A stretch of 64,000 nt of DNA from Isoetes taiwanensis. Its lineage: Eukaryota > Streptophyta > Lycopodiopsida > Isoetales > Isoetaceae. The stretch lies in assembly GCA_021234155.1 (NCBI GenBank), contig JAJEKV010000062.1:5518497-5582496 (forward strand), written 5' to 3'. Shown one piece after another: positions 1 to 30,345 of this stretch. The position numbers and the translations under genes were made by a program. The first letter of the stretch is position 1. Each line of letters starts with the position of its first letter. Under the pieces are notes generated by a model, which saw nothing but the letters and a program-made list of their open reading frames with translations, was not told the DNA's origin and did not search any database.

Positions 1-300
1 GACGGGTTCCTCCCATTCCTGCGAATGTCGAGTCTCAAATCGAGTGTCCCGTCGATACTTGATACTCCTAATCAAAGCCTCATATTTATTTGTTGGCATG
101 AGTCTCACTAGGAGCATGAGGAGCCGCGCGATAAATCTAGTGATGCGATGGTAGCATTCCCATGGCCCCTGATACAGACTGTCATATGGCTTGTCCAACT
201 CTCTTTGAATGTTTTGAACAACACAATTAAGTAGTATCTTGTATAGGGTCCAGCGTTGATAGTCGTCCAAGGGAAGTATATTCGAACTAGAAGCAGCCAT
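1..300 (-). CDS. Unrecognised ORF cut by the window edge
   Basis: An open frame of 100 codons runs from an ATG at 300-298 to the first base of the window without a stop, so its C-terminus lies outside. The protein begins MAASSSNILPLDDYQRW and is rich in Leu, Arg and Tyr, with a segment RFIARLLMLLVRLMPTNKYE that could be an amphipathic helix. I recognise no domain. The start is the first ATG after AT-rich sequence, and the GC palindromes at 390-443 lie directly upstream. It may be a host gene's first exon or the start of a transposon protein (for example the N-terminal part of a Harbinger-like protein), but neither can be supported from what is visible. Confidence 0.3.
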   Translation of the reverse strand, partial: MAASSSNILPLDDYQRWTLYKILLNCVVQNIQRELDKPYDSLYQGPWECYHRITRFIARLLMLLVRLMPTNKYEALIRSIKYRRDTRFETRHSQEWEEPV

Positions 301-384
301 GTGTAATGCACTAGAACGAGAGAAATTAACTAATTAGCAAATTATATTTCTCTCCCCAGAAAAAGATTCTAAATATACAAAATT

Positions 385-1060: not shown

Positions 1061-1274
1061 AATCTGTTCATAATGCTATTCCTATTTCATTTATCTGTTA
1101 TGTTCCATATTTCTAAAACATAGCCTCTTCTTAATGTTAACCTGTTCTAATCTAAAGCATAGCCTGTTCTAAAACACTCAGAATCCTAAAACACTCAGAA
1201 TCCCTAAAACACATTCATTCTAACCCATTTTAAACATAACCCACTCATTCAGAATTATAAACCCATTCATTCTA

Positions 1275-1900
1275 ACCTGTTTGAAGCCGAGAAGCCGAGT
1301 TTGAAGCCAAGAAGCCGACAAATAGCCGAGTTTGAAGCCTTCTTTGAATCAGAGAAGCCGATTAGCCGAGAAGCCGAGTAACTAAGCACCTAGCTCATTG
1401 CCCAATAAACATAGTAAAACATAATGCACCATTTTCATTTTTAAGAAATCTTATAATGCCTACCTTGTGTCTCGTTTATCAAAGCTTTCTTTCCACTGGA
1501 AAGCCCTAGAATCGTAAGCAAGATCCCGCAAGAGGCTGTATCATAGTCAAAATTGTTATATCTGCATCCACATAAAAAAACAACTCAAAGACAAAAATCT
1601 TTACTTACATGCTAAACAGAGAATCGGAAGAAGGGCTTGGTAACGTCAACACCGGAAATTACCGGAAACACCGGAAAGAACGGCGAGAACACCGGAAAAA
1701 TTACCGAAACACCGGAAGAACGGGCGAACACCGAAAAATTACATGGAAACACCGGAAGAACTCGATGAAAAGGCTAAGGCGCCGGAGTGAAGAATGCAGG
1801 GTTTAGATTAGAAGAAGGCGAGAAGGCGCGCTTAGATTAGAAGAAGCCGACTTTAGATTAGAAGAAGCCGAAGTTTAGAAGCAAGAAGGCGAAAAGCCGA
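1275..1900. repeat. Minisatellite-like blocks (GAAGCCGA, ACACCGGAA, TTAGATTAGAAGAAGCCGA)
   Basis: Three successive short-unit repeats are visible. GAAGCCGA/TAGCCGAG units run at about 1285-1378. ACACCGGAA(A/G)A units run at about 1650-1760. A roughly 20-nt unit TTTAGATTAGAAGAAGCCGA recurs three times at about 1803-1875. The 65-codon ORF at 1609-1806 is a by-product of the second block. No gene is recognised. Confidence 0.65.
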
Positions 1901-2040
1901 AGGAAGGCTATTCTTGGCGAAAAGGCATGCAAAATGGAAGAGGAAAAGTTGAAGAGGCATTCGAACTGCCCGATTTTGTTCGAAAATTAATAATCGCCGG
2001 AACTATTAATACCTATAAACCCATATTTTCATATCTACTT

Positions 2041-5000
2041 ACTTAAATTGTGTTTGGGTGGTGTGTCCTCTTTTTCCTCCCGGTGGACATCGAATTCGGC
2101 CAAAAGCCAAATTTTGTGACCAGAAATTTGAAAATCCGGCAAGAAAAAGACTTTCCCCACGTTATGCATTTTTTTTAATTGGGGTTTTTTTTTTTTTTAA
2201 CGTGGCGTGGATGCGTTCTGAGGTGCCTTTGCCCGTTACACCTTTCTGCAAGTCTCGCAATTGTGGCGGTGGATCGGATCGCGCCATGCCGCCAGGTAAA
2301 CCACGCAACAAAGGTTCTTCTCGCAACTCTTGGGTTTCTTAGCTTCTCGGGTACTTCTTGACTCATCTTTGGTATGCCATTGTAGGCAACGAAATTCCTA
2401 TTCCTTTTTTCTCTTTTCAGCGAGCATGTTGAAATATTTACAGTTCATCATTATTTACCCTGAAGGCCGTCTTGCATGAGGTAAAATCTTTGATAATTCC
2501 TAAACTGCGATTTGTTTTTGATGCATCCATTTCGTTTCAGGCAGACACCTTTCTAAGTATGCCAGTTCAATTTGCCCTGGTTAATCTGCAAGATAAGCTG
2601 AGGTACTGGTGTTTTGCATTCTATTCCATTTCGGCCTGCCACAGAAGAAGATATGGATGGTAGATATACAGTTATGAAGCTATCTTCGAATGCTGGCTGC
2701 TGGGATGCATCCTGATGCGGCATTTCATAGGTTCTAGAGAAACGTGAGCTCTCAAAACTGTAGAGCGCCAAGGAAGAAGTTTCACAGGTCTAAGCTGGCA
2801 TCAACGTGGAACTTGGCATTTTTAGAGATGGATTTACATTTTTGGATGGGTTGATTCATGCTGCCCTAAGCATTGAATTTTGGATGAAGTAATCTTCAGT
2901 CATGAAACCGTTGGAATAGAGCAGTCATCACCGTTGGAACCCATCAATCTGGTTATTGTGGGAGAGTTAGTCTGCTCAGGCTCTTGGCACAACTACTATG
3001 CTCTTTTGGGTTGGATCCATATGAATAGGCATTAGAGGTAAGATATAATTGTTTTGTTTTGAATTTTAGGAATTCGAATCTTCCTCCAACTATGGCGATG
3101 GGCTAATTAGAGCAATTATGGCATGTTTTTTCTCTGATTGGATGGTTGCAGATTCGAAACGTTGGATTTCTGCCTTCTCCGACTTCCTAAGCTTTTATCA
3201 ATGCTTCTCCTTTCCGCCGCCTGCTCCTATTTCTTTTAATTTTATGGTAAAGCAGAGATGCCAAGCCCCTGTTCCAGTATACCCCAAAAGAAAGGAATGG
3301 CGTCTAATAATAATATCCTGGCATAGAGAAGGTTGATCTGCGCCTGAAGAAAAGCTATCTAAATACTCAATTTGAATGTAAGTTTTTTCAATAATTTGCA
3401 GGCTTATTAAGTATCTTAACTTTGTTCAGATCTTCTAAATATAGTAAAATTTGAGATTTGAGGTCATTTCATACTCTGTATTGTGTTTTTCCTATTTTCA
3501 TTTAATCCAAGCACCATATGTTGTATTGCCAATCCATTTGCCAATCGAATCTGTAAACCATGTGCCAGTTTTACCACTACCTGGTCCTGATCCTGAGCCA
3601 CCATTGGACTGCAAATCCATTGTGTGACTCATTATGATATCCATCTTGAAAAGACTTGGATTTATATGGACTTCTGCTTGCCCTGTGAATTATTATGATA
3701 TCCTTCACGTCCTGCATTTGTTTGGTAGCTTTTAAAGCTACAGCAGAATGCCTTTCCAAAAGAGCCATTGTAAAATTGCCATATGAAATACTTTGTTAAG
3801 AGTGCAAATGTAGGAATTTGGAATGGCAATCTATGAAGAACTAGAATCCATTTCTGCTACCAGGACTTGCTTCACATATAAAAAGCATGCAGGGTTTCTA
3901 TTTTGTAATTTGTGCCAATTTTGCTTCTTAAGAAGCTAAGGTTTTGTAATTTCGTGCAGGCTAAGGTGTTCCAATGCTTGAGCTTCTCTGTTGAGGCATG
4001 TTTTTTCGATGTGGACCATTATATGTTTCATCCTATTTGTATGCATGCGGTAATAGTCTTCAACACATTTTCTATTTATTCACCGGGGGTTTGTTTGGTA
4101 ATGCTTTCAAACGGGTTTTTTTTCCTTTCTTTGCTTCTATTTTGTTTTGTAAGCTCCCTCGTTGCTTCATAGGTCTGAACTTCCCATATTTTGCCCCTTC
4201 CTAGATATGTTGCAATTGTTCCATGCATGTGTCTTACCATGAGTACTTCCATATATGTGGTCCTTACCCTTATCTTTATTTCACTTTGTCATTGTAGTTT
4301 TTGCTAAAATTGCGACAATTGAGTTCGCTGTGAAACCACCTCTTCCACGTCAGGTTTCGTCCCTTGCAACATCTAAATCATTAAAAAGGTGAATGACCAA
4401 CTGTAACTTCTAGACTTTTTCTCTTACATAAAATCAATGCTACAGCAGAATGGACCTATATTGATGCAATTTTGAGAATGGACCTATATTATTTTGAAGA
4501 GCATCTTTTCAATGTTATGGCATACTTTAGAAGTGCTTTCCAATGCACAAGTTGATCTTCCATTTTAGATAAAGTAGGGTTGTTTATTTATAAGCATCAT
4601 TCCGGAATGGAGTTTGTCATCTATTGAGAGATAGGTGACATGTAATAGAGTTAGATATGAAGATGTTTTTGGGAATAAATACTGAAGCTGACGAAAAAAA
4701 TTCTATAAGTCTATACCACTCCCTATGACGAGGCATTGTATTTACAAGCATGTTAAGTCCTTAGTGCTAGGTTCCATATGTGCCAACTGATTGTTTGATG
4801 GATCAGTAGATGTATGAAATTGAAAAGTGACCAACTTATTCTATGGTTCAAATGACCAAAGCCTAATTTATGCATTTACAAAGTATAATTTGTTTGTTTG
4901 AGTTGACTTTAAACTCTATGCTATGCCTATAAGTAGAAGTTCAGATTTTAATTTGCTATTGAATTTTTGGACGTGTAAACTGTTAACAACATTTGAAGAA

Positions 5001-5390
5001 GTGATCGAAATGTTACCTCAAATGCACAATTCCTCCAACTATTTTTAAGGTAAAATCTAATTTTAGATGTTTTGTCCAATTTTTGTGTATTACATGTCAT
5101 AATATCAATGTTTTGCAATGGGGCATGGAGGTGCAAACTTTATGCTGATCAATGAATAAAATATGAGACGTGGTTTTTTGCACAATTTGTTTTCTACGTA
5201 GTGAAAGTCGATGTGATCATTAAACAAATGGCATTTTGGATAATTAGGGTAGAATTAGCATCATATTATTTGGTTGAATGGTTGTACTTAAGGATTGCTT
5301 CTTTGTAAATTGTGTAAGTGATGATTGTATTTAAGAATTGCTTACAACCCAGAAATACGCATATAATCCAGAAGTGATAACCATACATCA
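2041..5390. other. Intergenic stretch, no gene recognised
   Basis: AT-rich sequence with T-tracts. Short ORFs have no recognisable domains. Two places look faintly exon-like. One is a short + strand frame at about 2285-2341 (MPPGKPRNKGSSRNSWVS, then stop), followed by an AG-bounded frame at 2541. The other is a minus frame at about 3645-3503 ending in ...GNTTYGAWIK and a stop. Neither can be tied to a gene. Confidence 0.5.
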
Positions 5391-5639
5391 AAAGCCCATA
5401 TGTGCATTCCATACAACCAAGAAATTATGCCCATTACTCATGTTGGAAAGGACGGTATTTAAAGTTTTATAGATTTATGCATTCATGTCTACAATGCAGC
5501 TTGACTTATATGCACATACACGCGTATGGACACAATTATCAAGATACTCGCATGCGGCGGTCCTTATATCACGGAAACAATGTACATGCCTTGCTTATAA
5601 TTGGCAATGCCGGGATTGTTTTCACCCTCCTTATGCATA

Positions 5640-5664
5640 GCAATGCCAGGCACACATTTACTAG
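5640..5664 (+). mobile_element. Degenerate Helitron-type 3' terminus
   Basis: GCCAGGCACACATTTACTAG matches the terminus at 6024-6043 with one change, including the terminal CTAG. The hairpin before it has decayed (AGCAATGCCAGGC). The base after CTAG is A, not the T expected of an A^T insertion. It is probably the end of an old relative of the other two Helitron copies. Its 5' end was not found. Confidence 0.45.
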
Positions 5665-6013
5665 AGATGCGCCATTGTCATATGCACCATGTGGAGTATT
5701 CAGAGTTCCATTATGAACTAAAGAGTGCCAATGAACGATGACAAAAAATTATGCCTATCTGTACCTATCTGTTGTGATGTACTTAACTACTAGACATGAC
5801 ATTTTCAACATAAGTTTTGGGTCTATCTATCCACGTTTTCTACTTTAGGGAAAGGTTTACTTGGCCCCCACTTCACTTATAAAGCATTGTTTTCTCTACT
5901 AAAATTCATCCTTTAAAAATCATGTCCATTCTTGCAAGCATCAATCTGGGGTGTTGTCGGAAGTTGCACATATGAACGTTAAAGGCCAGGTAAAAACACA
6001 TGCTAGGACATTA

Positions 6014-6043
6014 GCCCGGCAACGCCGGGCACACATTTACTAG
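6014..6043 (+). mobile_element. Helitron 3' terminus (hairpin plus CTAG)
   Basis: A perfect 7-bp hairpin, GCCCGGC-AAC-GCCGGGC (6014-6030), is followed after 9 nt by CTAG (6040-6043) and a T. This is the standard Helitron 3' end: a subterminal hairpin, CTRR and host T. The stem is identical to that of the Helitron ending at 10522. The 5' end would lie to the left but could not be placed. TCTCTACTAAAATTC at 5894 has the right form but is preceded by T instead of A. Confidence 0.65.
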
Positions 6044-6051
6044 TGGTTTTT

Positions 6052-6345
6052 AAAAAAACATATTACCCATATGTTTGAAAAACCATACCCATACCGTTGA
6101 AAAACCATATTACCCATATGGTTTTTAAAATAGCATCTTACCCTAATGTTTTAAAGAAAAAACCATTCTAACCCTAATGTTAAAAAAAAAAAACAATTCT
6201 TACTCTAATGTTATTAAAAACCATTCTTACTCTAAAGTTGTTAAAAAACCACACTCTTAAATATTTTGAAAAACCATATTACCCATATGGTTATATTTTA
6301 AAAAAGCATGTTACCCTAATGTTAAAAAAAAAAAACATTATGTTT
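6052..6345. repeat. Low-complexity tandem repeat with TACCCTAATGTT units
   Basis: About ten imperfect units of roughly 30 nt built from ACCATTCTTACCCTAATGTT or ACCATATTACCCATATGG, separated by A-runs. The same core (as AACATTAGGGTAAGAACAG) occurs in the palindromic block at 590-1000. There is no coding potential. Confidence 0.65.
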
Positions 6346-6439
6346 GAAGGTTAAAAGTGTTAGATTTAATCTTCTTGGTAAGGTTCTTTAGAGGTCTTTG
6401 TACAGTTTCAAAAGTATGTTTTTCTTGAAAACATGTCTT

Positions 6440-9400
6440 CCAGATGTTTTTTGAATGTACTAACTTATTTTATGTTTCAGATGTTTTAGGTCAATGGTAT
6501 GCGAAGAAGCTAAAGAAAGTACCCCTAATGATGGTCCTCAAGGAAAGGAAAAATCCCCAAATGATGCATGATGCCCAAGGAAAGGAAAAGACACCCAAGG
6601 ATGACCCAAAGGGAAGAATAATGTCAAAGAAAAGGATGAAAAGAAATTGTACTTTATAATCGAAATTCGATTGGAAAAACAAGAAGGTCAACATCCTACA
6701 TGAATGCAAATGTAGAGGTAGTAGGAGAAGGGATTATTATTCTAGCAGATCCTATCAATGCGAAATCAATGATCAAAGATTAGGGGGAGGATAGGTTAGG
6801 TGTGGCAATCTCAAAATTATATGACAATTGGAAGAAAAAGGGGTCAGGTAAAGAGGAATGCCTTGCTTGTGTGAAGCAACTAAAGGTTGCAATGATTGTG
6901 GCATGGCCTAGGCACAGTATCCAATTGGAGAAAAACTACATGTTTCCTATGGATGCAGAACCATTGTCAATAAGGTTTACACAATGTAGCAAGAGGCCAC
7001 TTCCATCTTTCAAACATTATCCCACCAAAAGGTGCAAGTCAGATTATGATTGTTCTCCTGAAGCTATGATGAAGGTTAGAGGAGGTGAATGTTGTTGGGC
7101 TTAGAATGTTCACAATAGAGGAGTTGTTGGGAGCAAGAGCTACATATCAAGAACATAAGTGTGATAGTAGGAGAAATTTCATGTACACCATATTTGGCTA
7201 TGCAATTCAGGATGAAAGATCGAAGAAAAAAAGATTTCCATTGAACGGAAAGTGGATATGTTCGAAAGCATGGATGGCTATACAAGGAATTCCAACCTCT
7301 TCCTGGCACAACTGGCAAAAGAGATATGAAAATGGAACTAGAATTGCATTGCATGGGAACACTGGCCAGCAAAGACCAACCTCTAGGACTATAGCTGCAA
7401 AGGAAATATTTGAAACGTATGTGGAGTTCAATGCAGAAAACATGCCACATAAGAGTAAGAAGGATGAACAGGGTAGAGTTGTTGTTGAGAAGAGATTGCT
7501 CATCCCATTGTACCCAGAAGAGCATACTAGAGGAAATAAATGCATTGCTTCGGGAACTTGGAGTAGCCTCTATATCCCAGCCCAGTTTTAGTATGCTATG
7601 GAATAAGCATTTCAAGCATGTGACCATAGCAACTTCAAACAACTTTGCAAAGTGCAATTTGTGTGCTAAGCTGAAGGAGACTCTTGATAAGACTGTGCAA
7701 CCAAGTCTAAGGGCTAAGATAAGGGAACACATGAAGGACCATATGACTGATCAACTATCATGTAGATCAACTTATTGGATGTGGAGGACCTTGTCCGAAT
7801 GGAACCTAATAACCGCCTATGTATTATGCATGACAAGATGGACCAACAAAAAGACTTGTCTTCCACAATTCAAGTACATACCAAAGTCATGTGGAAGATC
7901 ATACCCTTTGCATTTCAATGGCTGGGGCAATCTTGCATGGCCAGATCTCAAACCTACTATGGGCATTACGGTTTGGAGTTGTGGAGTGATGGTCCGTGTT
8001 TTTCATATTGGGAGTATCATGAGGTGTTTAAGAAACTATGAGAATGGTTACAATGGTCACCTCCAGGGACCCTACAGACTAGCCACCACTACATAGTGCA
8101 TTGTTGGATGGAAACCGAATAATATTGAAAAGTTTAGCAAGGCAAGGTTTAGGAGGCATGGACCTAATGAACATGTTGGAGCTTCAACATCTCGTGCTAA
8201 ACCTCGAACTGCCTAGAAGGTTGCTCTTGCAACTTGATAACCATCTTTGGCCAAAATAAGAACAGTGGATGTTTTCTTTCTTATCCTACATAACATATTG
8301 TGGGCATTTTTGAAAGGGTTAATTTGGGGTTTCTAATGCCCTACATACTCATGAGGATGTGGATGCATTATTTGGAAAATATAGTCATGTTTTGAGACAA
8401 AGCAGACGTGACCAACTTTCCTAGGCTACTAGAAATATTCCATGGATGCACTACTCCATCTCCTATAGGATCTCTCATAGAAGAGGTGCCCATTGGAAGA
8501 GTTTTGTGGAAGGTTATAATTTTGAAGACATGGAAGGCCATTCTAGACCTCTTCAATTCACTTTTGGGTGAGAGATGGGATTCCAATCATGCAATGGAAG
8601 ATGAGACCTTCGGAGGAGAAGTGGAGAGGAGGGGCGAATCCGCATAGAGATGCGAATGGCAAGCCTATGATACCTCCAGGTCAACCAAAAGCTCTAAAAC
8701 CTACTACAGAAGTGAAGCAAGTGGGATTGACCCAGGATGGCATCAATGACTACATCAAGCATTGGCAAACTAATTCTGATGACATTAATCGTGCATTGAT
8801 AGATTACTGGAAGAAGGTGATTAACTTGTTGGATGAGGTAGACACATCCTCAGAAGAATTGACTGAAGGGTGGCTCCCTAAAAGCAGGTGGAGGACATTA
8901 GCAGGTGCTGAGGAAGATGATGGCACTCACTATTAGTAGCATTGTTAAGGCCCATGCTCCTCCTCAATCTGACAAACACTATGTTGGTCCCAAGAAAGAT
9001 AGGCCAAAATATCTAGGCCTAGATGTTTATGAACCAGCAACTGACGTGGAGTGCCACCAATTTGTGGTAGTAAAACCAGCAGATTTACAGACTTATCCGA
9101 TGTGGTTGGGATACACCATCTCAGATATTTGCAAAGAAGAAGGTGATGTTAACTTCAATAAGGTGCGTGTGGAATGGTGGTGTCCAGTGCACCAGTTGAC
9201 TAATGTCACCGATAAATAAAGATATTCAGATTGTTGGACAAAGAGGTGGAGGAGAAATCCTAGTGCTTTGGCTAGACATTGAAATCGTATTGTACTCGTG
9301 GACTCCAAAAACTATTCCAAGTAAAACAGCGAGAGTTACAATACCTCTGGATGTAAGGAATAAGGTTCTCATATCCTTGGGGATGCTGGTGGAAAAATGA
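6440..9400 (+). mobile_element. Transposase-like coding region, DUF7869-like family, frame-broken
   Basis: Consecutive + strand frames can be read through about 3 kb: roughly 6802-7104, 7085-7530, 7530-7765, 7765-8040, 8100-8410, 8410-8580, 8580-8936, 8905-9219 and 9203-9400. The order of motifs fits a large family known in plants and animals with an RNase-H-like core. HGNTGQQRPTSRT (about 7350) and LLIPLYPEEHTRG come first. A Cys pair in KCNLCAKLKETLDK (about 7650) follows. Then come IMHDKMDQ (about 7820), LLLQLDNH (about 8223) and THEDVDALFGKYSHVLRQS (about 8345). The Asp residues in the last three could form a DDE/D-type catalytic set. The C-terminal part contains VEWWCPVHQ (about 9165). 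The family name DUF7869 is from memory. No terminal inverted repeats were found. The frame changes may be decay or assembly errors. Confidence 0.6.
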
Positions 9401-9634
9401 AAAACTATGTAAATATGTTTTCTACATTACTATGTATCAATCACAATTAATAAAAGTTGTGTACTACTTGAGTTTCATGATATATGATGTTGTGATTTGA
9501 AGTTAAGGCGTGAATTTATATTAAGGTGTGTGATTGTATGTTAATGTATAGTGACTTTTATCAAGTTACTAAAAAATTGCAATATGAAATTTGTCCCAAA
9601 ATCAAGACATAATCCCAATTTAATTGAATGATGG
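9401..9634. other. AT-rich spacer, nothing recognised
   Basis: AT-rich sequence between the end of the transposase-like region and the point where similarity to the gypsy LTRs starts. No ORF, inverted repeat or terminator-like structure was identified. Confidence 0.5.
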
Positions 9635-9860
9635 TTTTAAGGTCTAATGGGCCATGTAGCTCGTATGGGGTATTGCCATGTGGCAATATAGAATATATTC
9701 ACATGTTGCATAACATGCGCATTATAATGGGTTCTAATGGTTGTGCCTCAAGGGACAACCCTTTATGATCGCCGTGTACGTGTCATCATATTCGACATGT
9801 ACTAGTGACGTGGTAGTATAATATACATATTTATACCGTATATTATGCCGAAACGTCACA
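9635..9860 (-). mobile_element. Ty3/gypsy LTR fragment (3' LTR of the split copy)
   Basis: GGTCTAATGGGCCATGTAGC and the following 200 bp are repeated at 18430-18653 and more weakly at 18800. The right boundary ...ACGTCACA adjoins a polypurine tract read on the minus strand, so this is the first part of a minus-strand 3' LTR. It is an old fossil and truncated on the left. Confidence 0.65.
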
Positions 9861-10521
9861 TTCTCCCCATCTTGAATTGATCTTTGCTGCAAATCATCGG
9901 AATCTTCTCACCTTGAAATCCTGCATTAACTTTACAATATATTTAATTACATACTTACTAGCTTACACAAGATTTAAACGATTATATTTACTCTAGGCTT
10001 TAACAATATTTATGACATTTACGTACGTCTTAGCGCGATTATATAAACACTAATCATAATTTAGACAATAATATTACATAGGTAAGGTTTTAATATCATA
10101 CACAAGAATTAGACATGTGCTTCTTATTCTCTTCCTTGGGTATTGCATTACAATTAGAAGTATATACCTAAGATGCACCCAAGTATATGTGAAATTAGTT
10201 TATTTTGTACAAGGACCATGAAGGTCGTACACCTATCATTGGAAGGAAATACATCCTTACCACGTTTAGTTAACATCTTAAATAAGCATTACCTTGGAAC
10301 CCTGCATGATCTCTGCTGGACTCCTTTAATACATGTAATTAAATTAGTTACCTTAAGGTAATATTCTCACATTAACATTATAGTAATATTGGATATATTG
10401 TTGATTCCAATAGTATTATATTTAACTGACGGTTCTATGATAACTTTAAGGCCTTATACATTCCCACAATTATGTCGAGGCAATAATTCTAATTCAGAAA
10501 ATATTTTAATTATTTATCATA
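9861..10521 (-). mobile_element. Ty3/gypsy internal region next to the 3' LTR, with polypurine tract
   Basis: The reverse complement of TTCTCCCCATCTTG (9861-9874) is the polypurine tract that primes plus-strand synthesis in this superfamily. The rest, non-coding by eye, is an inverted copy of about 29907-30335, for example around the words CACAAGAATTAGACATGTGC and CTTCTTATTCTCTTCC. It stops exactly at the Helitron 3' end, and the same gypsy copy resumes at 15516. Confidence 0.65.
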
Positions 10522-10678
10522 CTAGTAACATTGCCCGGCGTTGCCGGGCTTTAGTAACATGTTATGTTGGAGTGGGGATGTTGTGCTCGTAGTGTGATTT
10601 TTATAAATAGAGTGAAAGACTCACCAAATAATATTGCCTTAGGTCAAAATGCAAAAATATAACTCACAATTGTAAGAA

Positions 10679-10799
10679 ATGGGTGTTGTGCAATGGTGTA
10701 TTCATTTCCATGTGAATGAATTATTGTGCTGTCGGGCATAATGGGTGTTGTGCAATGGTGTATTCATTTCCATGTGAATGAATTATTGTGTTGGGCATA
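10679..10799. repeat. Two-copy tandem repeat, 62/59-bp units
   Basis: ATGGGTGTTGTGCAATGGTG starts at 10679 and again at 10741. The second unit differs only by a 3-nt loss near its end. It lies inside the Helitron, near its 3' hairpin. Confidence 0.85.
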
Positions 10800-11126
10800 A
10801 GTACAATATTTCTTTAAAAAACATAGAATAGCAAAGGGGGTCAATAGGAAGAGGGGCTCAATTAAAAATGCTATTATTATGCATTCTCAAAGTCTCATAA
10901 GAATGCTTGGACAATGAAAATGTATGACTTTAACATATTTGAAGGTTTTGTGTCTCTAGAAACCAGACTGCCATAATTAGCGTGTAGTTGCACCACTTCT
11001 TTTCCCTTGGTGACCCATGAAAACCTATTAGATCTAGACCCAAGTGTATGCTAAACAATAAATAAACCACGTGCGCAATCCTAAATGATTGGCATAGAAC
11101 CTTTTCTTTTATAAAAAATAGATGCA

Positions 11127-11180
11127 AGCTATAGACATAAGCACAATGTTGTCAGCTATAGACATAAGCACAATGTTGTC
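11127..11180. repeat. Two-copy 27-bp perfect tandem repeat
   Basis: AGCTATAGACATAAGCACAA followed by TGTTGTC occurs twice head to tail (11127-11153 and 11154-11180). A looser duplication of about 115 bp (GACC(C/T)CTTATTTCTAT... and CATGCCACTGTTTCAACA) follows at 11820-11965. Confidence 0.85.
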
Positions 11181-14100
11181 CATTTGGGCTCTATGTCTCA
11201 ACGATAGAAATTGTTTTGGTAGGCATTTAAATATCAATATACAAAGCTAGACAAACTGTCTCTTTTATATGAAAAAAGTTGTAGAAATTGCAAAACAAAA
11301 GTTGAACATCGAGATTATCACTTTGCATATGGTAGTGTGACACCTTATTAGCAAGACATAGTTGAGCATTTCAGATGTAAGATATATGAGACGAAATGCA
11401 AATGAGCATAATGCATTATAATCCACCAAATGGCAATGCCATATCCATTATTTGTTGTGGTAGCTACGTAACATGTTCTCCTATGTATGTTTTTAATGTG
11501 ATTATAATTTCAAATACCTAAAATGAATCTTACCAAAAAAGGAAACTATCCAAGAAAAACGTGATAAGAGTGTCCTTCAAACAAAGCTGTTTCTACATAT
11601 TGCAAATGTCCACATTCCAGAAATAAGATCGTTCATCTTGATAAAAATGTGCTTTGTTTTGAACTTCAACTTCCAATTTCGTTTCATATTCAATAATGCC
11701 CAAAGATGCAAAGCAAGCAAATAAATATTTCATAAATTGTACTCTAGAGTATATAAACTCTTTTTTACGAACACGTAATCTTAGCCATCATTCATGTTGT
11801 TGGGATGACTGAAGGTGTTGACCCCTTATTTCTATACATGCCACTGTTTCAACAGAATGAAAGATTTAACAGACATGTTGACCTCTTATTTCTATCAAAG
11901 GTGGTGAATGGAACTTTCAAACATGCCACTGTTTCAACATGATGAAAGATTTAATGACATGTTCGATTCGACACAAAGGAACACTTTGGGTGTTATCTAA
12001 ACAATGATGTGCAGAGGAAGGCCACTCCAATTCGGCCTCTCTAGGTGGGTTGTGAGCTTGACAAAGTACTACTGAAACACATTGATTGGCAGCCTAGAAT
12101 GGCATTCTTACCATTGGTGGAGTTTGCTTCGAACATCAAACATGAGTATCTGCAAAGGATCGAAAACCTAGGGTAATGCTATGCATAATAACAAAAGATG
12201 ATAATCCACAATTTCATGTTGACTGTAGCTATATGGATATTGCATGAATCAAGGTGCTGCCTTGGAAGCTTGGAAGCAGACTATATCACTGAAACATTAC
12301 TTTTTTTCATGCTGTGGCTTTGCCTTTAATAGAAACAATATGGCCATAACTAAAAATCATAAAAGATAGCCATATTTCATCACATTGATCTCACGGGAAG
12401 GAAGGAAAATAAAACACATTTAAGCTTGCAAGTTCTCTATCTTACCTTTCAACTAAGACTTTATCTCGAGGAAGCACTATTTATGGTCGTTTTGATAGAT
12501 CCATAGTCCGGAAGACATATAAAGCGTCAATATCTTAGAAATGGCATTTACAACATGATGCAAACATAAAGTTCGAATAAATGAACAAAGACAATTCACG
12601 AACTCTATACACTATGAGACCATCACGGATAACATAAGACATCTTAGATGGATAATATAAATACATCTAATGGACTTGTAATCTTGGGACAAACCTACAG
12701 ATTCTAGCCTCAATTCACATGGGAATAAAAGATGCTAGTCTAGTAGATCCCTTGATAGCTTCTAGGCATCTAATAATGTGAATAGTTTTAAGTTCATGTC
12801 TAACATATGGCCCTAGATACTTGAGAATGCACAAAAGAATAACCAAAGATGTAGCAAGAAGGAAGAAGTGTTCGATTTCATGCTTGCAACCGGAGAATAT
12901 AAAAGCCAGAAGGCTCGACATAAGTAAGAGCGGCATCATGTGCATGTCGGCACATATAGACAGACGTGGCCCATGACCATCTCAAATTTCTTAACTTCCT
13001 ATGAAAAACCAAGAGCAAAGCTTATCAAAAACTCTACATCTCTTTTTTCACATTCATAAGTCAAATAGGTCAAAGGAATTTGTTATCAAACTTCAATTCC
13101 AAAGAAATGAATCTATCCCCGAAAGCAATAGATGCATATGCACTGGGCTTTTTAGGGCATGAAGTGGCGTTTCCTAGTTTGATGCAGCAACTATAATCAT
13201 CATGCAACGGATCGAAAAGTATCATAGGCATCGGATGCAACCAAATATAGGCCCACTAAGGGGAACTCAAGAATCAAAAGCGACAAATCTTAGCAAGAAT
13301 AATACAAACCTCAAGAATGCTTGTAATGATTCCGTTATTGCGAAGATAGGAACCCACTTACGGTGCATATGCATGAGAAAATGAAAGATCCAAGTTCCTT
13401 CAAATTTTGCACACTCACATGTCCTCAAAAATCCGGAATAGAAACCCGTCATTCTTGCATCCGGAGGTAAGTGTGCAAGATATCCCCGAGATCCCAAATC
13501 AACAATCCCAAATCAACGATTATTAAAGGAAATAGACCTTTATCCGAACTTTCAATATGGCTGGTGACGATTTGAGCAATAATCCACGTTATACATGGAA
13601 AACATTTCTATAAGCGTAATAGAATATGTGATAAAAATCGGTTCAAAAACCTTATAATCCAAGGTATTTAGCGGCTTTGATGGAACTGAATGTGGCATTT
13701 GTGCCAGCGGTGAAACAATATTACAAATATTTCTAACAATACATGCATGTTCTCTATGATCCTTCATGAAGAAACGAATTTTGTGCCAGTTCTGGCAATG
13801 ATATGGCATTCCAACAGCAAAAGAACCAACCTCTTATGCCATGGAACACGCTTAAATGAGAAGGCGTCGTCTTTGTGCCCTTGGAAATTCTACATTGTAG
13901 GATAGTTTGACACCTCATGATGGTATAAATAAATGTCCAGCAAACTGTAAAATTCTATAATTTGCACATATTAAAAATCAAATGGCTAAATTCTAGTACC
14001 TCTAAAGTACCCACAACACATATTTGGACTACATGTGATATGCCCACCCCTTCTAGATGTGCACGAAGCTCCGAAGAAAGAAGGCACACATGTAGCCCCC

Positions 14101-14405
14101 GAAGGGAACACTTTCAAACATTATGGTGATTCTCAATCTATAACAAATAATACAAATAAAGGAACAAAGGCATCTGACATAGAAAGACCTAGGAGTAGAT
14201 TTGAAACAAATCTGGATTGATATTACAGTTATGGTCGGGCAGATCTTACATACTGAAAACCCCTATAATTTATCAATTCCACAGGAAATCCATTTACAGA
14301 AGCCGTCAAAAGGGATACAGATTCTAACCCTTCCACCCGTGTGCATCCGTGACAGAAGATATTCTGAGGCTAGAAACATCCATACATAGAACTCTCCGGA
14401 ACTCC

Positions 14406-14829
14406 GTATATCTCAAGCGGGATGTGGGTTAATGTGGCCAAAAAATTTTGGGTTAATGTGGCCGTGCCACATTAACCACTGGTTAATGTGGCCATCCGAT
14501 ATCAGCCAGGTGGTTAATGTGGCCAAAAAAGTGGTTAATGTGGCCAAAAAACCAGGCTTCAAACTGCGCGGCGGGGGCAAAAATTTCAATCGACTGGTTC
14601 TTTCTGCTCTATGGGCAGTTTGATTCGATCTAAAAACCATGCCAATCGCTTCATCTACCTCTTTTATGCTAGATCAGTGAAGAGAGGAAGAGATTTGAAG
14701 CAAAATGGAGCCGGATCGACCAAAAAACACCAAAAACGCCAAAAAAGCTTGGTTTTGGGCTTCAAAACCGCTACCGTTTCATGGTCGATACAAAGGGCTT
14801 ACATTAACCACATCCCGCTTGAGATATAC
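14406..14829. mobile_element. MITE-like element with 29/30-bp terminal inverted repeats
   Basis: The left end GTATATCTCAAGCGGG... (14406-14435) is the reverse complement of the right end (14801-14829) except for one extra G in a GGG run. Inside the left half, GGTTAATGTGGCC is repeated five times, plus one inverted copy. Such subterminal repeats can bind a transposase. There is no long ORF, so mobilisation would need a transposase in trans. The target duplication is uncertain. TA|TATCTC...GAGATA|TA would fit a TA duplication, but the palindrome extends one base further, so the family cannot be fixed. It sits inside the Helitron. Confidence 0.75.
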
Positions 14830-15515
14830 TCTACGTTCAAACTCCAATCTCTATGTGATAGCATGTAAAAACTCTATGTACCAGACATTCATACTCACAT
14901 ATTTGAATAGAAGATTACGTACTACGACATTCCTCGCATATGCAAGAACCCAAAGAATTTCATATTTCAAGCCTTTGAAAATAATCGATATGGGAGGAAC
15001 AAAGACTTCCTACTTAACCCGCGTATTGAACCCCGCAAAGAGTAAAATGGTATTCAAGATGTCGGATTCGGCTCCAAAATTCTTCAAGAAGCGTGAGCTC
15101 ATCAATCGACGGAAGTGAATCCGGAAGTCGTCTTTGAGGCAATCCGGACGGCGGCAGAGGGTCGAGGTGGGCGAGCTGCGGAAGAAACCGCTACGCTTGC
15201 CGAAACCCTTCCGCGGGACAAAGCCCGATCTAAGAATTTACGATATGGGCGCATTTTGGATAAGAGCTTCTACACTCCCCGCCATCGCCGGATCGAATGT
15301 TAAGAGCGTGTCTTCCATCACCCATGCAAAGACGCGATCGCCAAAAAGGAAATAACCCATCTACCCTTGCCAAAATCATGCAAAAGAAGTCCTTGATTTT
15401 TGGCAATCGTAAAAATTTTCTGGTGTCAAAAAACCCTACAACCTTAGACAAAATAGCTTAGTAAAAAATCCAAAAAGTTTTTGGGGTGCCGGAAAAACCA
15501 AATTTAAACAATAGA

Positions 15516-17400
15516 TAGCTATGGTTCTTTTATCCAAGTGTTAAACGTGTAACTCTCCTTTACCACTTGGTGATGCTTCAACCTTACAGATATATACTTT
15601 ACAATTGCTATACTTAAAATAAGACAATTTCTGATTATATTTACAAGGACCTTGAAGGTTATTTACATGCCTTTTGAAATGCATGCCACAATGATGTATT
15701 TTTAGATTATATAATTTATGTGCTTTTAAAGGGTCTACATCTCTGATTTATTTAATTAAGAGCTAGGCTATTAGCTCATTCCTACGTATGAATGCATGCA
15801 TTTGATCACGGCGTAAGAACATTATGCTTTTCTCATCATGGCTGATGACTTCATGCGTCCTGTCATGCCTACCCGACTATGCCCTTTTAGGGTGCCTATA
15901 CCGCTACAGATAGCGTATGAATGGCGAAAATTCTACCATGGCCACGGGTGCAAGTGCTTTTCCGATCATGCATCCGACAATTAACTAGATGATTTCTCTC
16001 CCCCCCTTGGCTCATTCGCTTATAGCTACAACGCACCTACCTATCAAGCCTACGTCGACTAACTTGAAGGCGGCCTGTCCGTTGCATTGCTTCTATGAAT
16101 TCCAAAGGTGGAACCTGCCTATGATGGTCAAGGTCGATTAACTTAACATCGATTGTCCATAAGATGCAAGTGCGCTTCAATCATAAGGTTGAGCCCTCAC
16201 TTTCTTCAAAAGAAAATGGTCATGTACCCTTCAATGGCGCTATCCAACGAACCCTATCCCCTCAATTGATGTTGCACCCAACATCACGCCTATTTTCTCC
16301 CCTTAAGAGGTTAGATGCTTCTTACTTAAAATTACCCATCTCTCACATGATGGATGGAGCCATCATGTAATATATCTATCCCTAAAGTGATGGATTAACA
16401 AATTATTTAGAGTAATTTCACCTGCTGTGGTTTTCTCGCCATGATAATTCTTTTTGTCTCAAAAGACTTTGTGACTAATATATACTTCTTATTTTAGATG
16501 TACTTAATTATCCTAGTAATGATTCCTTCTTAGTGAGGTATCAATCTCTCACTAAGTGGTTTCAATATGTTGGATGTCCATAACAACCGCTTATAATTTT
16601 AGTTACTCCTATGCATTTCCTTCCCAATCTTTGACGCTCAATCTTGGGGCAATCCTTTCAACGAGAATATCCGGGAAAGCCTTCTAATCCTATTATGGAT
16701 ATTATCATCCATATATTTATCCTACTAGACTCTATGACCTTAGATCCCCCGAGCTTTCTAGAAGCTCATCCACTCATTGCCCGCTTGAAGCAAAGGTAAC
16801 GTTCTTCCTAGTTGCTTGAGACTCCGGGCGCTCCTCGATGTAGAGGTCGACTTTCTTCATTAGATCCCATTGCTGGTGGTTTTGATGGCGAGTTCATGAT
16901 CTGAAGTTTCCTATATCCCTTCCTAAAGCCCTGAAGGTGGTGCCATTGAAAAGATTCTCCACGTTGGATTCTTCATCTTGGTGGTTAAAGGATGACTCGA
17001 TTCGATATTGTTGTGTCAACTCCATCAACATCTCTCATGTCGAGTCCTTATCTTGTTGGTATCGTGGTTGCCCGAAGAGTGTTGATGATGTTGATTGCTT
17101 CACCCCTTCAAATTGCCCTGGACATCTCTTCCTTTTGATTTGTTACACTATGGAAGGGAGGGAATAACAAGGGAATATAAGTGCAAGGTTTATAGCTTGC
17201 ACAATCACAATCACAATTACTATTAAAGTTACCCTTGGTGTCTCCTCTTGAGGTGCACACGCATTCTATCTATCCTTCTATTTGTGCACCAGTTCATAAT
17301 GCTTGTGCCGTCCGATATCCGCTGACTACAACACAATACGTTTTGCTTCACACTCTAACTAAAGATGTGACGACCGCTGATGCTTCGGCGTTTCCATCTA
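15516..17400 (-). mobile_element. Ty3/gypsy internal region with gag-like remnant (split copy, second part)
   Basis: This continues the gypsy copy interrupted at 10521. 15516-16371 is an inverted copy of about 28867-29906. 16372-17400 is a direct, diverged copy of 30735-31960. Read on the minus strand, the latter encodes short runs such as KTTKNGRSLMKKVNLYIKEK (clearest in the relative near 31430), which look like gag. No protease or reverse-transcriptase motif was seen between the gag-like part and the polypurine tract. The copy is old and broken in many places. Confidence 0.55.
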
Positions 17401-17924
17401 CTCCATAATCCTTGAATCTCTTGTTGCCGAGGTGCTTTGATTGCCATCTTTGTCGTTAAGGTATTGGATGCTTCTATCTTGGGTGTTGATCTCCTACATA
17501 TCGAAGATACAAGTGGCTTCTTATCTTATAATTACTAGTAGTACCACCCCGACGGCCATCACCTAGTTGTTGAATGACCATAGGCGAACCCATAGCGCAA
17601 GTTACCTTTATCTCCATCTAATACGATGTTACAAGCATCACCATACATCACCTCAGGCGGGATTATGGTCGCCGAGATGTTGCCTTCTTAGTTGGCTTTT
17701 TTTGATGTCGGGTCATCTCTGAGAATTTCTTGATGTTTGTCGCCTTGAGGTCATGGCTGCGCTTTTGAAGATGTCTAGCCATTCCTCCTTCCATTGTTGA
17801 TTACACAAGTATCATGAGGTCGCCAAGTGTTGTCGCCGCCACAAGAGGTAGAATTGCGGCCCAAAGATGTCATATTGCTAATGAACAATGCTATCTTTCA
17901 TCCTAACCAAGTGGGCTCCTATGC

Positions 17925-18653
17925 ACAGGTTGCATTAATTGGGAATTAATGAGCTAATATAGAATTATCAACTAAAGGCTCTGGGTCTCTACCCCCCGTT
18001 CCAATACACAAAAGGTGTGCACAGAGAAATATAATATCATCCAATGAACTGAAATAATAGAGTAAGGACCTAATCTATTTACTCTAATCATAAATGGTTA
18101 GGTTCATTCGTCGCTGGCTAAGGTTCTTTGGCTATATAGGTCATCTACAGCCAAGAACATATGCATTTATGGCCTAATGCCCATTAAAAAGCATGCATTG
18201 ACTAACAGATCAACCACCCACCCGGTCCTTGGACTGGCTCCTAGTCTTCTAAACGCGTCCATGCTGCTGGAATCTCTGGAGTTTCGAGGAGCTATATCGA
18301 AACATGAGCTTCACTGCTGTTGGGAGGTTGAATGAGTCGGGCGCTGGCAATGCACGCCCGAGGCTGGAATCTAAAAAAGGGACACTTTTAGGGTCCCTGC
18401 CTCCTTATGCCTACGTTTTAGGGTTAGGGTCTAATGGGCCATATGGCTCATATGGGGTATTGCCATGTGGCAATATAGAATATATTCACATGTTGCATAA
18501 TATATGCAATATAATGGGTTCTAATGGTTGTGCCCCATGGTACAACCCTTTACTTGGCTGTTTGTGGTACATGTCATCGTAGTCGATATGCATTAGTGAT
18601 GTGGCAATAATAATATATATATTGATACCGGTATATTATCTTTGAATGTCACA
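17925..18653 (-). mobile_element. Ty3/gypsy LTR, partial
   Basis: This segment corresponds to 26660-27402 of the 1.55-kb LTR and to 9635-9860. It ends ...GAATGTCACA, which on the minus strand gives the LTR start TGTGACATTC. Together with the fragment at 9635-9860 it brackets the split gypsy copy. It is a diverged, old fossil. Confidence 0.6.
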
Positions 18654-18689
18654 AGTTGCAGATCCGCCGATATCCTCTTTATCTAGCTA

Positions 18690-18860
18690 TTACTTAAAAC
18701 ACGAGCTTCATCGCTACTAGGAGGTTGGAATGAGTCCGCACTTGGGGCAATGACGCCCCGAGGCTGGAATTCAAAAAGGAGACACTTTTAGGTTCCTCGC
18801 CTCTAATGGGCCATATGGTTCATATGGGGTATTGCCATATGGCAATATAGAATAGATTAG
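18690..18860 (-). mobile_element. Second, shorter gypsy LTR fragment
   Basis: ACGAGCTTCATCGCTACTAGGAGG and the following ~170 bp repeat 18300-18490 in the same direction (for example TCTAATGGGCCATATGG, ATATGGGGTATTGCCATAT). The fragment sits 40 bp beyond the LTR end at 18653. Confidence 0.6.
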
Positions 18861-18869
18861 ATTTTGGTT

Positions 18870-19640
18870 ACCATCCACTCGGCCGAAAACGGTCCTTGGA
18901 CTCATGTTCAAAGCTATGAGTCCGCCCATTAGGAGTGGTTGCTAGCAAGGTTTGCTGCCCCCTCGCTTAACCGCCCCGGCTTGTATTTGGGAACTTTTCC
19001 TCCCGTGATCTTCTTTCCGATTGAAAGGTCAGAGATTTGGTATACAATTGTGTACCCTCAAATATTTATGGATTTAAGCTTCATTGGCAACATAGGTCTC
19101 CAATTTGATGTTTTTTTTTTTTTTATAATGCAATAGTATAAGTAAGTAGCATTAAAACCATTTACCATGACCACTCTCAATTAACAATACAGGAACTGAA
19201 ACACTTAAACCAATATGGTATAACCATATGGGTTAGATAAAAAATTAAAAAGCTAGAATAGCATAAACATTGTGTGACACTTAACATTTTTTCGTATGGA
19301 TAACTGATAATAAATAAAAAATAAAAAAGAAGGCAAGAGAAGAATGTCGAAACTGGTAGTTAGGGTTCCGGCTATTGCATGATGCAGCAAACGGCATCCT
19401 ATGGGCTTACGACCGATCGTGGATAACCCGCACAAAAAGATGGAGATGGATTTTAGCAAAAAGAAATTACAGAAATGCAACCTATTACTGACTGCAGTGA
19501 GATATAGGACCTCCAGTCTGAAAGGCATGCACAGACGGTATTAGGGACAGGGACTTGCCTGGAACTATTTAACAATGCATTCAGAAAGACAAGAAGCAGC
19601 ATACTCGGCCCCATGGTACGCTGTTACTCCCAGTCCCACC
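18870..19640. other. Intergenic, nothing recognised
   Basis: Mixed-composition sequence with a T-run at 19110-19122. A minus frame at 19253-19528 is hydrophobic and has no recognised domain. No RNA gene or element end was identified. Confidence 0.4.
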
Positions 19641-19641
19641 T

Positions 19642-19920
19642 GTGTTAAGCTTGCTTATGGGAAGGAAGAAGGGCGACCTCAATATGGCCACCAGAAGGAA
19701 GATTGAGGCAGAGAAGATGGGCAATACCAAGAGGAAAAAACTATTTGACTTCCATAAGGCCACCATAGGGCCTGCTGTAAGTGCTTGTAACAGCAATCTT
19801 GGTAAGGAAATGAGTGCTGACAAAGAGATGGAGAGATCTAAGGGTATGAATGAAGCAAAATGTAATGGGAACAAGCACAAAGGTGAAGGAAATTGCAGGC
19901 AACCAAAGATGAACTTATGA
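19642..19920 (+). CDS. Unrecognised Lys-rich ORF
   Basis: A 92-codon frame. The second Met (19657) begins MGRKKGDLNMATRRKIEAEK, and the whole protein is rich in Lys, Arg, Glu and Asn. After its stop, a second basic frame (MEDTSTKGKAQQSTGSSPKQ) runs from 19920 to 19992. Such composition suits a nucleic-acid-binding N-terminal region, for example a retrotransposon ORF1 or gag start, but no zinc knuckle or RRM is visible. It may equally be chance. Confidence 0.2.
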   Translation: MLSLLMGRKKGDLNMATRRKIEAEKMGNTKRKKLFDFHKATIGPAVSACNSNLGKEMSADKEMERSKGMNEAKCNGNKHKGEGNCRQPKMNL

Positions 19921-19992
19921 ATATGGAGGACACATCCACAAAAGGAAAAGCTCAACAATCGACCGGCAGCTCTCCCAAGCAATCGTGGTTTT

Positions 19993-22900
19993 AGATTAAA
20001 ATTCCTATATAAGTGGCTAATGATCTAAATTCTCAATTAAGAGCAATAGCTAGTATGATGAATCTGAAAAAGAAACCGGTTATTATGTTTGAAGAATTAG
20101 TAGATGCTTATGTTGGTAAGGTATAGTAGGTAATAAAATATAGATGATCTAGATCTTAAAATTAGGAGCGATCCGATCTAGATCTTATAAAATTAAAGGT
20201 CGATCTAAAAGATTACCGCAGATTATGGTAAGCCCGCTTGTTTAATATGATTTTCGCGGCAACTATGCACACATGCAGGGAAGAATGATGTCCGAGCTAT
20301 CACCCCGATCATAATGCTTTAGCGCGCACCGAATTCAAATCCCGACATGTCTTAATTATTAAATGCATCATGCAAAAGTGAAGGGGATAACCTAAGAAAC
20401 TTATCGCTTACCCGCTAGTGACTTGAACCGCTTACCCTCTTTGGCTAACCTGCTTCTTGGTTTCAATCGCAGTAACCAAGTTTCTTGCTCTATTGCTATG
20501 ATGTTCTTTTGGATAAAAAAAGATAGCAAAGACGAAGCTTTAAGAAGAATATTAACGCAACTATGAAGTAAGATCCGCCTAATTGTTATAAACTAAAAAT
20601 TGTAAGCTAGTCGCTCATTTCACCAAAGATATAAACTAGTTGGTTGTATTTGACATTATACCCAATTCCAAGAATGTATTAATGTTTACTATGACTATGA
20701 ATAATAATTTCTCGAATGTCACATTATCATGGCTTAGAGAAAAGTTCACCAGTATTTTTCTAAGGTCGCAAATTGTACTCTAAAGTACTTGAAAAAAAGT
20801 ACTAAGAGTAAAAAGGTCTATTAGACTAGGAAAGGTTTTTTTTTTTTTTTTAAGTGAATCTTTGCCATTATTATTTTTTGTGTCAAGAATATTTCAAACC
20901 ACCTATTGGGTTCTTTTGAAATTCAATTTTTCATGCGCCTAGAAAAACTATTTCTTGGTAGCTCTTTTCTTCCAAAGAAATTGCTTTTGTCCGAAACGAC
21001 CTTCCGCTCTCACATTAGGCGATTCTGAGATGTCTTCTAAACCAAGAGTGGTCGAGGCTTAACAGGCAAAGGAGCTGTGGGCTGAGAATTTTAAAACCCT
21101 ATCTTCTCAAGTTTCGGAGGACGTTAATCAGACCTCTATTCAAGGTATTTAATCAGCCTTTTCGCCACAAAATACAGACTCTGTAAAGAGTATTATGCTT
21201 TGCATGAATTTGAATCCTTTCCTTACAATATATACATCGATATTAGCTTTTATTAATGCTCGATTCTCTATTTTAAAATATAATTTTGCTCTATTTGTTA
21301 GAATATAGTTTTTAGTAGCTTTAAACAGAGAGGTACACACCCAACGTGAACTGGAGGTTTGACAAAGAGGGATAGCAGCCAATAAGGATATGGATTGTAA
21401 AGGATGGAGGTCTTGCTAGGGATGGATAAGGGGTCTATAAATGGAACTAAAAATACCAAGCGTGAATTATACTTTGAGCTTTAAATTCACGCCAAGCATG
21501 ATCTCATGTTCAAAAGTTTGCTAAATCATGTTCATCTTCTTTGCACCAAAGAGGAAGAAGACCCCTAATAATTCCGTGTCTATTCCCCGTAAGAAGCCAA
21601 GTAGATGACCCGTGATGTAATACCATATGATCTCAACTTAGATAATGAATGGGCCTATATTCTTATGGCAAACATCGACCGCATGCCCTAAAGACGAAAT
21701 AAATGAGGGTGCCGAAAGGCTTGTTGGCCTCTCCAAAACAAATGGCAAGCTCGACTTAACACTCTTCTCCGTGAAAAAAAAAAAATAAAGATGACCAAAC
21801 AAGGGATTATAATCTCTTATGAGGAAGAGGATCGACACCAACCGCAAATTGCTCTTGAGATAACACGTAGCGTAAGAAGGGATCCGCCGACTTACTCATT
21901 GTAGAGCTACCGCATATAAAGATACTTTCATGAAGATAGATGTGAACGATGAGATATGTTTCAAGTATAGTTGGTCCAAGAATGTAGCAGCTTATAACTA
22001 ATATCTATATGCCACTTGTTACAGCTTGTGCATAGAGGCATGTTCAATAAAACCGACACCAAGTCACTACACCGCAAAGAAGCTAGAGAATTAGTCGACT
22101 TGAAAGCTTCTAGGAGAATCCCGGATCTAGAAAAGATGTTCAACTTGGCGGTTGTCGAGGGTATAGAGGCTTCAGAGTTTGAGAATGAACAGATGATGGT
22201 GGTGCGCCTAGAGGTCATGAACAAGTCAATAAGTACTTTGACCATTATCCATAGTCTTAAGACAACCTTTCAGCCCGTGATGAAGCCCTCATCCGCTCAC
22301 CAAGCTCCATTTACATTAGCGACGATATGATCCAAAGACATGCTATGGAGATTGTTCGAGCATGATTAGTAATCCGGTCAAATGCCTATGCCGCCAGATG
22401 TGTTACCTTAGGATTCGATCATGAACAAGCCCGTTGTGTGGTCGAACGCCGGGAGTTATTAGGAAATAATGAGATTAAATTCGCCATCATCGACGACCAG
22501 CATTCGGGCTTGAGGCACAAAACCCCTCATTAGGCAAAAAAAGTAACAAACAGGCAACACAATATTCTACAAGCACTATGCATATAGAAGGTGTCGACTC
22601 TTGGATGCCAATACTTCACCGCAGATATGGTCGAGATTAGTGCTTTAATATTAAAAAGCACACCAGCCGTGGCTTTTTAAATCAATTCAATAAACGCTAT
22701 GCGCGTATTTTCCGTTTGATTATAAATGCCTTGCGTGAATTGGGCGCTAATGTGCATGCTTTAAATCAACTCAATACGCCATTCGGGCTGCCTTCTACAC
22801 AAAGATAAAGCACGCCCGCACGAATTGCATCGATTTAAAAGCATGCCCGGGCGTGATTTGCATTAACAGGTGTGCTTTTAAATCAATTCAATTCGTGCCA

Positions 22901-28866: not shown

Positions 28867-30345
28867 CATGATGGCTCCACCCATCATGTGAGGCGCTTAA
28901 ATATGTTTAGATAAGGCTAATAAATTAAACGTTCTAAATAAGAAGCATGTAACCTCTTAAAGGGAGAGAATAGCTATGATGTTAGGTGCAACATCAATGG
29001 AGGGGCTAGGGCGCGTTGAATAACGCCATTTGAAGGGGTGCATGACCATTTTCTTTCGAAGAAATTGGGTCTCAATCTATGAGTGAACCTACCCGCATCT
29101 TAGGAGAAAATCGCCGTTAAGTTAACCGCCTCGACATGATAGGCAAGCACCAACCTTGAATTCATAGAAGCAATGCAACGCCGTGTCGTTTCCAAGTTAG
29201 TCGACACCGACTTGATAGGAAGGTGCACTCTAGCATGTAAGCCAAGGTGGAGAGAGAGCAACCATCTAGTTAATTGTCATAGGATGCATGATAAGAAAAG
29301 CCCCCGCACCCAAGAGCCACGCTACACTAATTTCGTCATTTCCTCACGCCCCTCGATAACAAGTGTAGGCACTCGAGAAGAGCATAATCGATCGCCATGA
29401 TAGGACGATGAAGTCATCGACCATTATGGGAAACGATAAATTCCTTTACGCCGTGATCAATTGCTAGCATTCATATTTAGGAATGAGCTAGTAGCCTAGC
29501 TCTTAGTTAGATTAATCAAGGATGTGGACCCCTTTAAAACCACATTGATCATATAATCTTAAGTATATTATTGTGGGTGCATTGGGAGCACTCCACATGA
29601 GGGCATGTATTATAACGTTCTAATAGGTCTTGTTGATAATCTAAAGTTTTGTCTTGTGTAGATATATTGGTTGAGATAAGGAAGAGAATAATCACATAAA
29701 ATGATAACCAAACCTTTAGGAGGATGTAATCCCATCCAAGGACACGTAATTAACTTTCAAGGTCCTTGTAAATATAATAAGAAACTATCTTATTTTAAGT
29801 ATAGCAACTCTAAAGTATATACATATAAGGTTGATACATCACCAACCAAGAGGCGAGCGAGAGTCACGCATTCAACACTTGGATCTGATGATATAAACCC
29901 TGGCTATGTGATTAATAATTGGAATATTTTCTAAATTATAATTATGGTCTTGATAATGGTACGAAGGTATATTTTAAAGGCCTTGAAGTTATCAGACCGT
30001 CAGTTAAATATAATATTATTGGAACTAATATATCCAATATTACTATAATGTTAACGTGGGAATATTACCTTAAGATAGTTAACTTAACTGCATGCATTAA
30101 AGGAGTCAAGAATCATGCAAGATTCCAGGGTAATACTTTTTTAAGATCTTAACTAAACCGTGGTAAGGATGTAATTCCTTCCAAGGATAGGTGTACGACC
30201 TTCAGGGTCCTTGTAAAAAAATAAATTAATTTCATGTATACGTAAGTGCATCGTAGGTATATACTTCTAAGGGTAATGCAAACCCCGAGGAAGAGAATAA
30301 GAAGCACATGCTTAATTCTTGTGTATGATAATTAAAACCATACAT
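28867..30345 (+). mobile_element. Ty3/gypsy internal non-coding segment, inverted relative to its neighbours
   Basis: The first kilobase is the reverse complement of 15516-16371, and 29907-30335 is the reverse complement of 10095-10521. In the copy at 9.9-17.4 kb this segment has the same orientation as the gag-like part, whereas here it does not. The uninterrupted junction at 29906/29907 is the empty site for the Helitron. The segment is old, AT-rich and has no long ORF. Confidence 0.65.

Follow-up and report, generated by a model that had tools for sequence, protein, structure and literature searches.

The locus examined here lies in a window of 64,000 nucleotides of Isoetes taiwanensis DNA (C1070:5518497-5582496), and it raises the question of whether an interruption of some 5 kb on the minus strand is a Helitron with ends that can be fixed to the base, and what sequence in the genome represents the site before insertion. 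A preliminary description had proposed both, with an empty site inside the window itself. Read on the minus strand from 15515 to 10522, the element has the layout A^TCTATTG...GCCCGGC-AAC-GCCGGGC-N7-CTAG^T, that is, host A, then TCTATTGTTTAAATTTGG ... AAAGCCCGGCAACGCCGGGCAATGTTACTAG, then host T. The termini, orientation, A and T flanks and 7-bp hairpin followed by CTAG were thus all found as they had been described (Table 1). The GC-rich hairpin has a stem of 7 and a loop of 3, with its edge 11 nt from the terminus. DNA folding of the last 50 nt gave a z-score of -4.44, and when the window was resampled 40 times under a first-order Markov model, a hairpin-CTAG-T arrangement with a stem of at least 7 never arose. 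One T at the junction could belong to either side; we follow the TC / A^T convention in placing it. As expected of Helitrons, the element has a 5' TC and a 3' CTRR end, carries its hairpin within the usual distance of that end (about 10-15 nt), sits between A and T without target duplication, and is multicopy with conserved ends and variable interiors.

Table 1. Coordinates of the features discussed, numbered from the first base of the window.
Feature	Position	Strand	Remark
Non-autonomous Helitron, 4994 bp	10522..15515	-	Host A at 15516, host T at 10521 (element sense)
5' terminus TCTATTGTTTAAATTTGGTTTTTCCGGCACCCC, 33 bases	15483..15515	-	Genome-wide pattern count
3' terminator hairpin GCCCGGC-AAC-GCCGGGC	10533..10549	-	7 nt before CTAG
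3' terminal CTAG	10522..10525	-	Read in the sequence and genome-wide pattern count
Nested 444-bp MITE-like element, inverted ends	14398..14841		Absent from L039
Second Helitron, 4010 bp, A^TCTACTTACTTAAATT...GCCCGGC-AAC-GCCGGGC-N9-CTAG^T	2034..6043	+	Also absent from the segmental duplicate
Diverged (79%) paralogous empty site	29906..29907		Reverse complement of the Helitron flanks

The flanks of the element were said to be contiguous at 29906/29907. They do join there in a 375-column alignment with 25 gap positions, and the junction itself is gapless, the nearest gap (6 bases) lying 17 bases away; but the identity is only 79%, and judged by its sequence the site is a diverged paralogue of the insertion site. 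It would fail the empty-site criterion of at least 90% identity given in the consulted part of PMC4067079. A better empty site was found by searching the window's own assembly (1,658,258,908 bases in 1110 contigs) with the 3' flank, which matched C1070:5207287-5207533 at 98% identity. At the junction C1070:5207533/5207534, about 321 kb from the window on the same contig, the 60 bp on each side are identical to the window flanks, with no target duplication or deletion. The surrounding sequence, C1070:5201010-5216000 (L066, L067), is collinear with window positions 1-2034 (K2P 0.023), 6044-10521 (K2P 0.012) and about 15516-23965 (K2P 0.037). Over window 1-23965 this duplicate is 93.7-97.7% identical, and the window copy is interrupted by two Helitrons. 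The duplicate measures about 15 kb as far as compared, 5216000 being the end of the stretch fetched (17 kb read). Since a collinear duplicate identical over 60 bp on either side lacks the element, the insertion accounts for exactly 4994 bp, with neither duplication nor deletion.

Eleven non-self paralogous loci of the flanks were fetched. In five of them (L055, which is the duplicate locus, and L056-L059) the two flanks adjoin without gap or overlap at the insertion point, the downstream flank of L055 lying at 1747 and the upstream flank at 1748. In five others (L060-L062, L064 and L065) the upstream match stops 16-17 bases short and the two matches are 23-24 bases apart, so there is no 5-kb insert there either; for the eleventh, L063, no upstream match passed the filter. 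The locus had been presented as a rare clean case. The site is indeed clean and exact, but its rarity was overstated, as Helitrons are regularly studied by means of paralogous empty sites and vacant-site PCR, according to the sections seen of PMC4067079 and PMC2267711. The label "gypsy" given to the flanking sequence is plausible: an integrase SH3 domain of Tf2-1 type, found at 28474-28776 next to the paralogue of the Helitron flank, lends it indirect support, and the flank is probably gypsy-derived.

A second whole copy of the element, L039 (C1056:23300016-23304537, 4522 bp), has the same ends and is flanked by A and T in other surrounding sequence. Its K2P distance to the window Helitron is 0.022 over 3822 sites and 0.047 over the first 662. 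L039 lacks the nested MITE-like insert. In the window, this insert carries the 4-bp CTCC on both sides (14394-14397 and 14842-14845), whereas at that point L039 has GGAG (plus-strand CTCC) just once, which indicates that the insert entered the window copy later. Among the best 40 of 903 candidate matches scored genome-wide, the insert itself included, the other 39 are 87-96% identical to it. The length of 4994 bp is therefore exact as the length now occupied, but it is not that of one original unit, because it includes the nested 444 bp and the 4-bp duplication, both missing from the other whole copy.

The termini recur throughout the genome. Host A followed by the 33-base 5' terminus was found at 155 places with at most 2 mismatches (64 exact), and the last 28 bases followed by host T at 120 places with at most 1 mismatch (47 exact); the reversed patterns gave 0 in both cases. 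When the first 150 bp were used as query (best 40 of 1324 candidates scored), at least 41 matches were obtained, and all 41 start at element base 1 or 2. With the last 179 bp (best 40 of 148 candidates scored), 37 of at least 41 matches reach the last or next-to-last base. Similarity running past 10522 or 15515 in other copies would have spoken against the proposed boundaries, which these matches bear out. Some alignments continue beyond the element, by as many as 8 bases at the 5' end and 13 at the 3' end, probably by chance. Thirty loci, the window's among them, were fetched by their 5' end; 29 have A^TC (some TCC), and L016 follows T. Distinct 3' ends read CTAG^T in 10 of 11 cases, the remaining one, L041, reading CTAT^C, and L045 has lost part of the hairpin. 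Shared flanks show that L014/L029, L026/L027 and L042/L046 are not independent. Among the 133 5' and 100 3' places listed, at least eight same-strand 5'/3' pairs are separated by no more than 30 kb. These pairs, to which the window and L039 belong, span 4.5-23.5 kb, and their number rules out that only two elements retain both ends. At L040 (C1053:7131811-7133022), two whole 3' termini of this family stand 486 bp apart, one with 1 mismatch, suggesting a duplicated or bypassed terminator.

No Rep or helicase was found in the element by a Pfam scan of 10 of the 38 open frames (at least 50 aa) that overlap it, none of which scored over the cut-off, or among the best 150 of 1813 Helitron_like_N candidates in the genome. 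The longest open frame has 139 aa. The Rep/helicase coding capacity of an autonomous Helitron was thus not detected, and we take the element to be non-autonomous. Termini, exact empty site and this coding result together support the preliminary description of a non-autonomous Helitron with base-exact ends. A captured host gene was likewise sought, and none was recognised in the 10 of 38 frames scanned. Many loci match the interior near 13182-13836 in part; inspection by eye of the eight fetched loci that match there showed no obvious conserved frame.

Helitron_like_N domains are abundant in this genome, all 150 of the best 150 scored (of the 1813 candidates) being over the cut-off. Comparison of these 150 with the 100 3' and 133 5' places listed placed no Rep domain within 25 kb of the family's termini. 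A 16.2-kb relative, C963:10972783-10988936, with a 5' end (1 mismatch) and an exact 3' end of the family, was considered as a helper and rejected, as a cation-efflux gene fragment and a reverse-transcriptase frame were found in it instead. The former (L052:7742-8404, minus strand; PF01545, E 8e-22) lies between the two ends and is a possible case of gene capture. The latter (L053:4516-6699, minus strand), an open frame of 728 aa, resembles reverse transcriptases weakly (RVT_1 E 3e-5, below cut-off); it had no match over the cut-off in Pfam or NCBIfam and no convincing one among PDB sequences. With 4796 first-look candidates in the genome, of which 61 were scored, the frame belongs to a very large family and probably represents a nested retroelement. 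Endonuclease-deficient Penelope-like elements occur in lycophytes, and no paper on them was found in our literature search.

The second Helitron of the window reads host A, TCTACTTACTTAAATT ... GCCCGGCAACGCCGGGCACACATTTACTAG, host T on the plus strand, opposite in orientation to the first and with the same hairpin core. The segmental duplicate lacks it, to the base. Its last 25 bp are repeated, at 92% identity, some 380 bp upstream of its end. Its 5' end preceded by host A occurs at 228 places with at most 2 mismatches, the reversed control giving 0. Among the 76 places listed with their letters, the preceding base is A in 65, G in 10 and T in one. A G/T junction is the signature of head-to-tail Helitrons in the consulted text of PMC2267711. 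Five of the ten G-preceded ends sit 1.6-9.3 kb downstream of a same-strand A-preceded end. G-preceded ends were noted at C1018:33456294-33469735 and on C908, C911, C671, C445 and C1001, 1.6-17 kb from another on the same strand, and such ends are probable head-to-tail tandem Helitrons. Between the two G-preceded ends on C1018, a Rep domain is encoded in a 1979-aa open frame, a candidate helper for the second family. When the 5' ends of that family were compared with a subset of the 150 Rep places, one Rep other than that on C1018 was found 26 kb downstream of such an end (C1089).

Relatives of the first Helitron are only partly alike. Four siblings sharing its 5' end were read through to their 3' end (L012 and L013, 5374 bp each; L016, 5479 bp; L011, 5112 bp), and all four have the same hairpin core with different bases between hairpin and CTAG. 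The interior matches other loci mostly piecewise, L039 apart. One might ask whether the element is a chimera in which read-through of a terminator, or recombination, has fused the 5' part of one Helitron family with the 3' part of a second. This would fit the siblings' differing bases after the hairpin. It would also fit the extent of similarity at other loci: 28 other 5' loci (L011-L038, about 1.6 kb of element each) match the window Helitron over no more than its first 120-495 bp, and in the eight 3' loci (L040-L047) only parts of its last 2.2 kb recur. We nevertheless consider such a chimera unlikely. L041 and L045, in which parts of the 3' half recur, themselves appear to start A^TC, and their apparent 5' end, although diverged, can still be aligned with that of the window Helitron; the alignment scores were 76 and 77, against a maximum of 62.5 in 500 shuffles of the 80 bases of L045, with both starts chosen by eye and the shuffle control made on L045 alone. 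No buried hairpin-plus-CTRR-T was found within the element, and six other 5'/3' pairs of the same termini are found among the places listed. Conserved ends with labile or divergent interiors are, moreover, usual for Helitrons. A chimeric origin by module exchange is possible and not needed. A broader proposal for this genome is that Helitron lineages with different 5' ends use one near-invariant 17-nt terminator hairpin and diversify by swapping modules of the 5' region and the interior. The window element, with one set of relatives for its first 0.5 kb and another for its last 2 kb, would then be one product; this proposal seems to us similarly doubtful.

The reading we hold to be almost certainly correct is that one of two segmental duplicates about 321 kb apart received a non-autonomous Helitron, which inserted between an A and a T within a repeated sequence of probable gypsy origin. 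The same arrangement would be produced by precise excision from the duplicate, and clean Helitron excision is discussed for a maize case in the part consulted of PMC2267711. The more distant paralogues L056-L059 and the site at 29906 are also uninterrupted at that point, so that, as far as these sequences can tell, the empty state looks ancestral and excision is hardly credible. The "duplicate" might also be the other allele, through an assembly artefact or a misplaced haplotype, given that nanopore reads underlie the assembly and that haplotigs were purged from it (PMC8566536, as far as seen). This too we regard as very improbable, with the two stretches 321 kb apart on one contig at K2P 0.012-0.037 and with the termini repeated at many other places independent of the window locus; even an allelic empty site would be exact. 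For the insertion itself, Helitron biology suggests that a Rep/helicase from another element would act in trans at the 5' TC end, that one strand would be peeled off and copied, that the 3' hairpin and CTAG would serve as the termination signal, and that the copy would then be joined into an AT dinucleotide.

Among known systems, the element is most readily set beside the maize HelA type of plant non-autonomous Helitrons, with which it shares the TC start, CTAG end, A/T insertion and absence of its own transposase, as well as the 3' palindrome, described there as 16-20 bp, often with a double A in the loop, 10-15 bp from the end (PMC2267711, consulted in part). Unlike in that type, no gene fragment was recognised in the Isoetes element, and its host is a lycophyte rather than a grass. 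Helraiser of bats is a resurrected autonomous element, whereas the element described here has no recognisable protein. The terminal logic is the same, with an AT target and no duplication; for Helraiser, experiments indicate that the hairpin is a terminator, and insertion at A^T without target duplication with plus-strand transfer via circular intermediates is reported (PMC5876387, sections seen). Helentrons and HINEs are rolling-circle kin likewise delimited by paralogous empty sites, but they prefer a TT target and carry subterminal inverted repeats (PMC4067079, as consulted), whereas the present element has an A^T target and a CTAG end.

Elsewhere in the window, open frames at 52536-54292 match domains of DNA polymerase epsilon weakly, DUF1744 scoring just under the cut-off and zf_DPOE_2 reaching it, and are probably a host POL2 gene or a fragment of one. 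The word "Helitron" does not occur in the main text, as consulted, of the Isoetes taiwanensis genome paper (PMC8566536), and no paper devoted to lycophyte Helitrons was among the best 12 of 151 matches of a literature search with lycophyte terms. We regard the element as a clean but ordinary example of a well-known class, which leaves knowledge of Helitrons unchanged. What the window offers is two base-exact Helitron insertions in a lycophyte genome, both time-ordered against the same segmental duplication, and their use lies in annotation and in the terminus consensus sequences for this genome.
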